Assembly (NCBI GenBank): GCA_002842285.1 | Contig: PHCJ01000014.1 | Location: 1 to 64,000, forward strand | Origin: Betaproteobacteria bacterium HGW-Betaproteobacteria-22 | GTDB taxonomy: Bacteria > Pseudomonadota > Gammaproteobacteria > Burkholderiales > Methylophilaceae | Direction: 5' to 3' | Length of the DNA: 64,000 bases | Shown: positions 42,120 to 45,485 of the stretch, one piece after another | Numbering within the stretch: position 1 is the first letter of the stretch | Layout of the letters: each line of letters opens with the position of its first letter | Translations under genes and position numbers: made by a program | The notes under the pieces: generated by a model | Database searches by the model: none | Seen by the model: only the letters and a program-made list of their open reading frames with translations | What the model was told of the DNA's origin: nothing

Positions 42120-42247
42120 GAATGTCGGAACGCAACCACAAGGCAAAGAGGTAACGGAAACGCTTCATTCTTGTCAGCGCATCGCATCGCATCGTTGCGA
42201 GGTTTTTCGGTTGCAGCATAAGTTACATGATTCAATCATTATTTATT

Positions 42248-42298
42248 TGTATTTTATACATTATTAACTTATATTTATGTAAATATTACAAATAAGTT
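42248..42298 (+). promoter_or_regulatory. Paired 13-bp palindromes, candidate operators of the argA fusion gene
   Basis: TGTATTTTATACA (42248-42260) and TGTAAATATTACA (42278-42290) are both perfect palindromes of the form TGTA(T/A)N3(A/T)TACA. Their centres are 30 bases apart, about three helical turns. An outer pair AACTTAT (42266-42272) and ATAAGTT (42292-42298) flanks the second. They end 10 bases before the start codon of a gene that itself begins with an XRE helix-turn-helix, so auto-regulation is plausible. Not tested. Confidence 0.5.
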
Positions 42299-42308
42299 AG
42301 GTTGTTTT

Positions 42309-43913
42309 ATGCATCTAGGCAAACTCATCCGTATCAAACGAAAATCGCTCAACCTCACTTTACAGCAACTTGCAACTAGAATTAATTCGGATGCAGGCAA
42401 CCTGTCGCGCGTGGAGCGTGGTGAATTGGGCGTTTCAGAAACAATGCTGCGCAAAGTTGCAGCCGCACTGGGGAGCACCCCTGCCCTGCTGTATGCTGAA
42501 AGCGAAGCTATACAACCACATGACGCATCAATGGCAACAACTTCGCCCACAAGAATCGCATCCTTGAACCATCACGCACATACAAAAGACTTTGTACAAT
42601 GGTTCCGCTCTGCAGCGCCTTTTATCCACGCCTTTGGCGGTCGCACATTTGTGATTGCCTTCGGCGGTGAAGTGGTCAACGAGCAACAGTTTATCGCACT
42701 ATCACACGATTTAAACTTACTAGCCAGCCTTGAAGTCAGGTTAGTACTGGTTCACGGCGCAAGGCCGCAAATTGAAGCACGTTTAATACGTGAAAAACTC
42801 ACCCCTGTGCTACACAACGGCCTCCGTGTCACTGACGACGCCGCAATGGAGGCGGTTAAAGAAGCCAACGGCTCTGTCAGAGTGGAGATTGAGGCTTTGC
42901 TATCAATGGGAATTGCCAACTCACCCATGGCTGGTGCAGATATACGCGTCGCGAGTGGCAACTTTGTAACGGCAAAACCGCTAGGTGTGCTTGAAGGGGT
43001 TGATTTACAACACACTGGCGAAGTGCGCAAAGTAGATGCCGCCGGCATACAAAAAAGGCTAGATGATGGCGAAATGGTGTTACTGTCACCGCTTGGCTAC
43101 TCTCCTACAGGCGAGGCATTCAACTTAAGCCTGGAAGATGTTGCGGTCAGCACCGCCATTGCACTAGATGCAGACAAACTAATTTTTTTAATGGACTCAG
43201 AAGGGGTGCATAATCTGCGCGGCGAGCTGCTGCGTGAAATGACCGCAGAAAAGGCCAAAAACCTGCTGCGCAATGTCAGTGAAACCGAACATGCCATCAA
43301 CATCTCTGAAGATGTTATTTACTACCTGCCTGCTGCGGTGCGCGCGTGCGAGCATGGGGTTGCACGTACCCATCTGATTAGCAGACATATCGATGGCGCG
43401 ATTATTCAAGAACTCTTCACTCTGGATGGCATTGGTACCATGGTTACCGAACTAAGCCTTGAACACATGCGCCAAGCAACCATTGAAGATGTAGGCGGCA
43501 TCATCAAACTCATAGAACCGCTTGAAAATGAAGGCATTTTAGTAAGACGCGACCGCGAGCGACTTGAAATGGAGATTAACCATTTTTATGTGATGGAGCA
43601 CGACAACCGCATTATCGGCTGTGCCGCACTTTATCCATTTGCAGAAGAAAAAACAGCCGAGTTTGCCTGCCTGGCAATAGACCCCGCATATCGCGGCTCT
43701 GGTCGCGGTGATAAGCTATTTGACTTTTGTGCCACGCAAGCCAAAATTGATGGGCTTGACAGCATATTTTGCCTGACCACCCGCACCGAACATTGGTTTT
43801 TGGAACGTGGTTTTAAACAACTAAACATTGAACAGCTGCCTGCACAAAAGCAGCAATTCTATAATTTTCAGCGCAGGTCAAAAGTGTTTAAAAAATATTT
43901 AAAATCATCTTGA
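42309..43913 (+). CDS. argA: N-acetylglutamate synthase fused to an N-terminal XRE-type HTH domain
   Basis: Encodes 534 aa. Residues 1-65 are an XRE/Cro helix-turn-helix (LIRIKRKSLNLTLQQLATRI, NLSRVERGELGVSETMLRKV). After a short linker (about 65-90) comes a standard bacterial ArgA: an amino-acid-kinase-like domain (FVQWFRSAAPFIHAFGGRTFVI at about 94, LVLVHGARPQI, GEAFNLS) and a C-terminal GNAT acetyltransferase (ACLAIDPAYRGSGRGDKLFDF, RTEHWFLERGF). It makes N-acetylglutamate, the first step of arginine synthesis. A second possible start is ATG 42531 (M75), which would give an ordinary ArgA without the HTH. The frame is continuous, with no stop or shift between parts. argB lies 0.7 kb downstream. 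Confidence 0.93.
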   Translation: MHLGKLIRIKRKSLNLTLQQLATRINSDAGNLSRVERGELGVSETMLRKVAAALGSTPALLYAESEAIQPHDASMATTSPTRIASLNHHAHTKDFVQWFRSAAPFIHAFGGRTFVIAFGGEVVNEQQFIALSHDLNLLASLEVRLVLVHGARPQIEARLIREKLTPVLHNGLRVTDDAAMEAVKEANGSVRVEIEALLSMGIANSPMAGADIRVASGNFVTAKPLGVLEGVDLQHTGEVRKVDAAGIQKRLDDGEMVLLSPLGYSPTGEAFNLSLEDVAVSTAIALDADKLIFLMDSEGVHNLRGELLREMTAEKAKNLLRNVSETEHAINISEDVIYYLPAAVRACEHGVARTHLISRHIDGAIIQELFTLDGIGTMVTELSLEHMRQATIEDVGGIIKLIEPLENEGILVRRDRERLEMEINHFYVMEHDNRIIGCAALYPFAEEKTAEFACLAIDPAYRGSGRGDKLFDFCATQAKIDGLDSIFCLTTRTEHWFLERGFKQLNIEQLPAQKQQFYNFQRRSKVFKKYLKSS

Positions 43914-43983: not shown

Positions 43984-44415
43984 ATGGCAAACATCACCCG
44001 TAGCAATCCATTCAGCTTGAGTGGAAGTAGCCCATTTGAAGATATTTTTGAAGGCTTCTTTCGACCAGTCGGCGTTGCCGCCGAACATCAGCCACAAATC
44101 AAGATTGACGTTGACGAAGACAAAAATGATTACAAAGTGCTTGCAGAAATACCTGGCGTAAAAAAAGAAAACATCCACGTATCTGTAGATGGCAACCAGG
44201 TCAGCATCAGTGCTGAATCTCATCAGGAAAAAGAGGTAAAAGAAGGTACTAAAGTACTGCGTAGTGAACGCTATTACGGCAAAGTGTCACGCAGCTTTTT
44301 TCTGGAACAGGAAGTCGACGAGACTGCTGCAGATGCAGAATATAAAGACGGTATATTAACGTTGACATTGCCTAAAAAGGTAAACGCAAGTACTAAACGC
44401 CTAACTGTTCGCTAA
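43984..44415 (+). CDS. Small heat shock protein, Hsp20/alpha-crystallin family
   Basis: Encodes 143 aa. The alpha-crystallin domain runs from about 37 to 130 (IKIDVDEDKNDYKVLAEIPGVKKENIHV, YGKVSRSFFLEQEVD, YKDGILTLTLPKK). A strong RBS AAGGAG precedes the ATG. It holds unfolded proteins for ATP-dependent chaperones. It sits alone between a heat-shock-like promoter and a strong terminator, so it is independent of argA and argB. Confidence 0.95.
   Translation: MANITRSNPFSLSGSSPFEDIFEGFFRPVGVAAEHQPQIKIDVDEDKNDYKVLAEIPGVKKENIHVSVDGNQVSISAESHQEKEVKEGTKVLRSERYYGKVSRSFFLEQEVDETAADAEYKDGILTLTLPKKVNASTKRLTVR

Positions 44416-44534: not shown

Positions 44535-45485
<951 letters not shown>

Follow-up and report, generated by a model that had tools for sequence, protein, structure and literature searches.

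A 64,000-nucleotide stretch of DNA from the Methylophilaceae member Betaproteobacteria bacterium HGW-Betaproteobacteria-22 (contig PHCJ01000014.1, positions 1 to 64,000; hereafter the window) holds a gene in which an XRE-type helix-turn-helix (HTH) is fused to a complete N-acetylglutamate synthase (ArgA). From comparison of the protein and its upstream region across the family, we think it rather likely that this HTH-ArgA is both an N-acetylglutamate synthase and the repressor of its own promoter, that is, a trigger enzyme with a single target, for which arginine would be the most likely co-repressor. The parts of this proposal differ in strength. Binding to DNA and repression by HTH-ArgA, taken alone, are highly probable, and self-repression through two predicted operators is well supported by comparison; we are less sure of arginine as the signal and of cooperative binding by one oligomer.

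The gene (42309..43913, on the forward strand like all features below for which a strand is implied) opens at ATG 42309 and runs as a single frame of 534 codons, with no interruption, to a stop at 43911-43913. Weak Shine-Dalgarno-like bases, AGG (42299..42301), were seen by eye 7 nt before the ATG. The product consists of an XRE-type HTH, a variable linker and complete ArgA. The XRE/HTH_3 domain spans residues 7-60 (42327..42488), where Pfam HTH_3 scores 34.7 bits (cut-off 23), and HTH_31 matches residues 2-61 at 31.7 bits (cut-off 27). A profile built from 27 family HTHs also matched 27 distinct sequences of solved structures at E <= 0.01, including ClgR, SinR, the P22 C2 repressor and 434 Cro chains, and the presumed recognition helix (residues 28-37; 42390..42419) was placed from the HTH alignment, which includes ClgR. 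The variable linker (residues 66-94; 42504..42590) precedes the N-terminal helix of the ArgA part, and is followed by an amino-acid-kinase-like domain (AAK; Pfam AA_kinase, residues 113-358; 42645..43382) and a GNAT acetyltransferase domain (Pfam Acetyltransf_7, residues 424-503; 43578..43817), GNAT models covering residues 416-503. The NCBIfam ArgA equivalog TIGR01890 matches residues 95-531 at 578 bits (cut-off 202.85), NF003641 scores 688 bits (cut-off 344), and residues 91-523 align to the NAGS of Neisseria gonorrhoeae (2r8v). On the features checked, HTH-ArgA belongs to both the ArgA family and the XRE HTH family.

This arrangement recurs throughout the Methylophilaceae. HTH and ArgA share one frame in 123 of the 125 family loci read, reduced genomes included, two further loci being cut by contig ends (L063 and L068, not read). 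The two exceptions, left out of the 123-locus set used below, may be assembly faults: a run of unknown bases separates HTH from ArgA in L062 (G181:C11), and the frame of L064 (G056:C27) breaks near query residue 186. In alignment A1, which comprises the window protein and 51 named relatives, HTH_3 and HTH_31 both match 52 of 52 members, with E <= 0.001 for HTH_3; because of these matches and the single frame in so many loci, the fusion is not a chance read-through. At least 178 of the 187 family genomes were matched in the search, including all 119 good ones, a figure that is not a count of fusions since the search also catches the related ArgB. The named relatives with the fusion are designated Methylotenera, Methylophilus, Methylobacillus, Methylovorus, Novimethylophilus or Methylophilaceae, the nearest being a Methylotenera MAG (92% identical). 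The reduced genus g2 has it as well, with an ArgA 40-47% identical to that of the window (full or nearly full matches listed); plain search missed the HTH in some g2 genomes, where it was recovered by reading the frame. Reduced genomes that keep the fusion measure about 1.2-1.4 Mb.

Among the matches listed in 299 genomes of the order, those from outside the family all begin at query residue 48 or beyond. When the first 123 residues served as query against 399 order genomes, 13 listed matches spanned both parts, all of them in Methylophilaceae; this sample had 15 family genomes, and its two g2 genomes are not among the matches listed. Across 397 genomes of the phylum, both parts were spanned, among the matches listed, in the window's genome and one other family member, and three weak listed matches extend as far as residues 91-109, but their frames, 235-313 aa long, are shorter than an ArgA needs. 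As all these counts are among matches listed, weak fused forms outside the family could be missed. The HTH is absent from 22 of 22 outgroup argA loci read, and a crude motif search up to 1.5 kb before argA at these 22 loci revealed no separate HTH gene. An earlier note on this DNA had read the 534-codon frame as an HTH followed by a full N-acetylglutamate synthase, which the frame, Pfam and TIGR01890 confirm, and had proposed to check whether the HTH-AAK-GNAT order follows the Methylophilaceae tree; the family and outgroup loci support that it goes with this family. The note had also named as a refutation the case in which close relatives all lack the HTH, and the family loci show that they have it. 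The fusion is genuine, spread across the family and maintained.

The HTH is itself a maintained domain under purifying selection, as seen from its low dN/dS and from the conserved residues of its presumed recognition helix. The dN/dS values obtained from 36 disjoint close pairs are 0.074 (HTH), 0.285 (linker, residues 66-90), 0.027 (AAK domain) and 0.042 (GNAT domain). Arg11, Leu32 and Glu36 are invariant in the 123 sequences, Asn31 is found in 120, Ser33 in 122 and Arg34 in 116 (the other seven have Lys).

The region before argA contains two 13-bp palindromes of the form TGTA-N5-TACA, whose starts lie 30 bp apart and which flank a conserved -10 box. Proposed operator 1, TGTATTTTATACA (42248..42260), overlaps the -35 region, and proposed operator 2, TGTAAATATTACA (42278..42290), directly follows the -10 box. 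Within the 120 bp that precede argA, at least one strict TGTAN5TACA occurs in 65 of 123 upstream regions (mean 0.67, maximum 3, in 200 dinucleotide shuffles) and at least two occur in 35 of 123 (0 in shuffles), in loci that are related rather than independent and in which the motif was first spotted by eye. Strict sites are found in 5 of 24 genera (g1, 33/35 loci; g2, 15/24; g7, 6/6; g15, 3/9; g19, 8/8); the other 19 lack the strict form and have only the looser TGYR (TGC) form. Looser TGYRN5YRCA pairs, 29-31 bp apart and with each site matching at 7/8 or better, occur in 79 of 123 regions, against a mean of 0.85 and a maximum of 4 in shuffles. A pair score of at least 14/16 is reached by 89 of 123 family argA regions versus 0 of 22 outgroup argA without HTH; among controls, 0 of 121 stretches covering -300 to -181 at the family loci reach it, and 10 of 1563 coding windows do. 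The 34 family loci that score below 14 include several g2 and Methylophilus-type loci. For 26 further loci, whose coding sequences differ from the first set, 18 score at least 14, and the eight below consist of seven Methylophilus loci and L198, whose contig starts about 53 bp upstream.

The sites also show preferred distances. Over spacings of 5-59 bp, site pairs peak at 29-31 bp, with 82 counts versus about 1 expected, and smaller peaks at 21-22, 41-42 and 50-53 bp approximately follow one-turn increments of the helix. Of the g2 and g16 loci, 20 reach a score of at least 14, with spacings of 29-31 bp in 5, 41-42 bp in 11 and 50-52 bp in 4; these stand for few independent events, and the spacings allowed in this scoring (21, 22, 28-32, 41, 42 and 50-53) were picked after the open spacing histogram. 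The suggestion of the earlier note that the enzyme could be its own repressor gains independent support from these conserved paired palindromes over the putative promoter.

The position of the sites relative to this promoter is conserved. Of 54 loci taken from the 123 for their spacing of 30 and score of at least 14, 51 have, 17 nt after the TTGNNN of operator 1, a hexamer matching TATAAT at four or more of six positions; at other offsets from 12 to 22, at most 32 of 54 have a -10-like hexamer. In the window, the proposed -10 box is TATATT (42270..42275), conserved at this offset in the aligned loci, and the -35 hexamer position is TTGTAT (42247..42252), 17 nt ahead of it and a poor match to the consensus; a generic promoter scan returned no forward-strand promoter in the argA upstream region. 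Given the conserved 17-nt offset, operator 1 would lie over the -35 position and operator 2 after the -10 box, and the start of transcription is predicted within or near 42278-42290. In 11 loci of genus g2, the second site stops two bases short of the ATG. A terminator-like hairpin (42187..42200) separates the preceding gene from argA, one such hairpin being found against a mean of 0.2 in shuffles.

Comparison gives a suggestive hint that HTH and operator vary together. Just past the presumed recognition helix, at residue 40, 43 of 123 sequences have Gln and 68 have Leu. Considering the 112 of 123 loci that score at least 13, half-sites at Gln40 loci are TGC-rich in 31, tied in 7 and TGT-rich in 0, and those at non-Gln40 loci are TGT-rich in 65, TGC-rich in 7 and tied in 2. 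That Gln40 goes with TGC half-sites and other residues with TGT is suggestive only, as it amounts to 2 independent pairs on well-supported branches and 3 on all branches, too few for significance, in a quick tree with long-branch warnings where residue 40 changes 4 times and operator type 6 times. Among three Gln loci of the further set, L209 and L238 fit the TGC pattern and L213 goes against it; Methylophilus loci misfit. G+C content does not explain the pattern: g16, at 0.35, combines Gln with TGC, and g2, at 0.32, lacks Gln and has TGT.

Some loci depart from the common operator. In Methylophilus-type loci (L031, L032, L127, L130, L200-L202, L206-L208 and L212), DASN replaces DAGN in the HTH, and inspection by eye shows that full palindromes are lacking and that TGCA-like half-sites stand about 30 bp apart; here, HTH and operator look as if they had changed together. 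In g2 loci L065, L067, L070, L076, L077, L081 and L084, recognition residues are changed (NTSS, SVSN) and no clear palindrome pair is seen; in L067 and L070, inverted repeats of another kind are seen around AGCAATTATT/AATAATTGCT and may be a different operator.

Within the genome, the pair appears confined to argA. The exact 43-bp pair occurs once in the whole genome without mismatch, and another 7 places match it with three mismatches, a lower number than for the reversed control (19). Single TGTAWN3WTACA sites are not enriched (7 places versus 11 in the reversed control), and no arginine gene was recognised by eye among the frames listed around the 5 such places away from argA. A regulon sharing the motif is unsupported by the single-site counts, though one built on degenerate sites is conceivable. 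The gene argB (44562..45485) lies downstream of argA in the window; of 80 named relatives, 58 have it no more than 2.6 kb beyond argA. At the seven g2 and g16 loci checked, the argB frame begins no more than 74 bases from the argA stop; repression could therefore extend to argB in these loci, and argB is possibly co-transcribed with argA in relatives where it directly follows. Between the two genes in the window lies a frame (43984-44415) that, judged by its sequence motif, encodes a small-heat-shock-like (hsp20-like) protein. An hsp20-like frame follows argA in 8 of 80 named relatives, in two of which argB comes next; the presence of this gene thus varies within an argA-argB pair that is otherwise close.

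The arginine-site residues of the enzyme are conserved. Lys290 (43176..43178) aligns with Lys201 in the arginine site of N. gonorrhoeae NAGS and is Lys in 123 of 123 sequences, and the motif ELFTLDGIGT (residues 368-377; 43410..43439) is the arginine-site motif as it appears in the available text of a NAGS review (PMC4490483). Glu368, Thr371, Gly374, Gly376 and Thr377 are likewise unvarying in the 123 sequences, and Leu369 is replaced by Ile in 4 and Phe370 by Tyr in 3. In the hexamer of N. gonorrhoeae NAGS, according to the same text, arginine shifts the N-terminal helix and the ring becomes wider by about 10 Å (PMC4490483). The HTH lies N-terminal to this helix, with few residues between them in L082-like loci. 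Since the arginine-site residues are conserved and the HTH lies ahead of the helix that arginine moves, arginine-controlled DNA binding by HTH-ArgA is plausible.

A classical repressor was also sought. ArgR of family PF01316 has no match in the genome and none in HTH-ArgA, and no genome passes the cut-off among 121 of the family (2 weak matches below it) or 200 of the order (4 weak matches below it). We rejected this ArgR as the regulator, as it is absent from the genome and, above the cut-off, from both samples; its absence above cut-off from the order sample indicates that the lack of ArgR is older than the fusion and not special to it. The genome also has ArgJ, so that ArgA may mainly prime the acetyl-recycling pathway.

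These elements can be assembled into a mechanism. HTH domains would pair within the ArgA oligomer and bind the two 13-bp palindromes with starts 30 bp apart, and protein bound across the -35 region and immediately downstream of the -10 box would block RNA polymerase, repressing argB too wherever it is on the argA transcript. Arginine, the pathway product, would bind the kinase-like domain beside the N-terminal helix and act as co-repressor, the HTH being carried by that helix, whose counterpart in N. gonorrhoeae NAGS shifts when arginine binds. In its most specific form, in which arginine reshapes the hexamer of this feedback-inhibited enzyme, moves the HTH helices and locks HTH pairs on two helically phased operators to make ArgA an arginine-dependent repressor, we hold the idea to be evenly balanced between true and false.

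The main competing explanation is plain autogenous repression, which would scale with the amount of ArgA, arginine affecting enzyme activity and leaving DNA binding alone. It fits all operator and HTH evidence equally, and a linker that varies in length and sequence does not demand tight coupling; the location of the HTH ahead of the arginine-moved helix, at a distance of few residues in L082-like loci, speaks for coupling, and we regard the plain form as possible though on the whole unlikely. The same sites could also serve activation of the argA promoter by HTH-ArgA, as operator 1 is on the upstream side of the -10 box, a position open to activators. However, operator 1 overlaps the -35 position, operator 2 is past the -10 box, and in the 11 g2 loci the second site reaches almost to the ATG; sites placed in this way usually mean repression, which makes this reading improbable.

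Two more explanations would take the DNA-binding role away from the fusion protein. The HTH might by now serve structure or oligomerisation, with another regulator binding the palindromes, a view left some room by the lack of significance of the half-site co-variation with residue 40 in independent pairs. Yet the polar residues of the presumed recognition helix, Asn31, Ser33 and Arg34, are kept in nearly all sequences, and the palindrome pair goes with the fusion and is missing before the 22 argA genes without HTH, so that we consider a purely structural HTH very improbable. Alternatively, the cell might make mainly an HTH-free ArgA from the in-frame ATG at 42531 (Met75), from which the earlier note had suggested that an HTH-free form could also arise. 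Among 123 aligned sequences, that of the window alone has Met at this position, and 71 have a gap there; no Shine-Dalgarno-like bases were seen by eye before it, and the dN/dS of the HTH is that of a domain in use. The suggestion found no support: Met75 was rejected as a start, and a mainly HTH-free product is scarcely credible. Self-repression with arginine as the probable co-repressor is the reading we retain.

To our knowledge, enzymes doubling as regulators are few, and the literature on autogenous regulation has long held the idea of a first pathway enzyme that acts as its own repressor. HTH-ArgA, if the proposal is true, would be a natural case of it: an allosteric biosynthetic enzyme appears to have gained a repressor domain that was kept through the whole family, and one protein would give arginine feedback at both enzyme and gene level across the Methylophilaceae. 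It also points to a possible way for these methylotrophs to control arginine synthesis in the absence of ArgR. The natural variation of HTH and operator should be useful for specificity work, and a test of the proposal needs no more than a single protein and a 60-bp DNA. A literature search over titles and abstract openings returned no description of HTH-ArgA, and in the available text of the NAGS review the word 'DNA' does not occur and the unusual NAGS types include no HTH form (PMC4490483).

HTH-ArgA can be compared with several known systems. With classical NAGS/ArgA, such as that of N. gonorrhoeae (2r8v), it shares the AAK and GNAT domains, the arginine-site motif and a full-length alignment; unlike them, it adds an N-terminal HTH of about 65 residues and a linker. 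Like ArgR, it would repress an arginine gene in an arginine-dependent manner, but it is of a family unrelated to PF01316; ArgR is hexameric and controls many genes. The available text of PMC8249747 describes as trigger enzymes of E. coli PutA, which has a single target, and NadR, BirA, PepA and PyrH. Like these, HTH-ArgA would be an enzyme that also acts as transcription factor, and it has the enzyme and an HTH in one chain. The closest likeness is to PutA, since HTH-ArgA is predicted to have a single target, its own gene; PutA, however, degrades proline, whereas HTH-ArgA is a feedback-inhibited biosynthetic enzyme. NadR also has an XRE-type HTH, joined in that case to NAD-pathway domains. BzdR of Azoarcus, as far as the available text presents it, combines an XRE HTH with a shikimate-kinase-like domain that has lost its activity and senses benzoyl-CoA, and its operators lie over the repressed promoter (PMC3602430). 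HTH-ArgA resembles this outline in its N-terminal HTH-XRE, linker and enzyme-derived putative sensor domain, and in its proposed operators over the promoter. It does not fall within BzdR/BoxR, as it has no shikimate-kinase-like Pfam domain and NF006015 matches residues 2-67 only, at 17 bits (cut-off 204), and it differs from BzdR in that its sensor part is a whole ArgA, far over the equivalog cut-offs.
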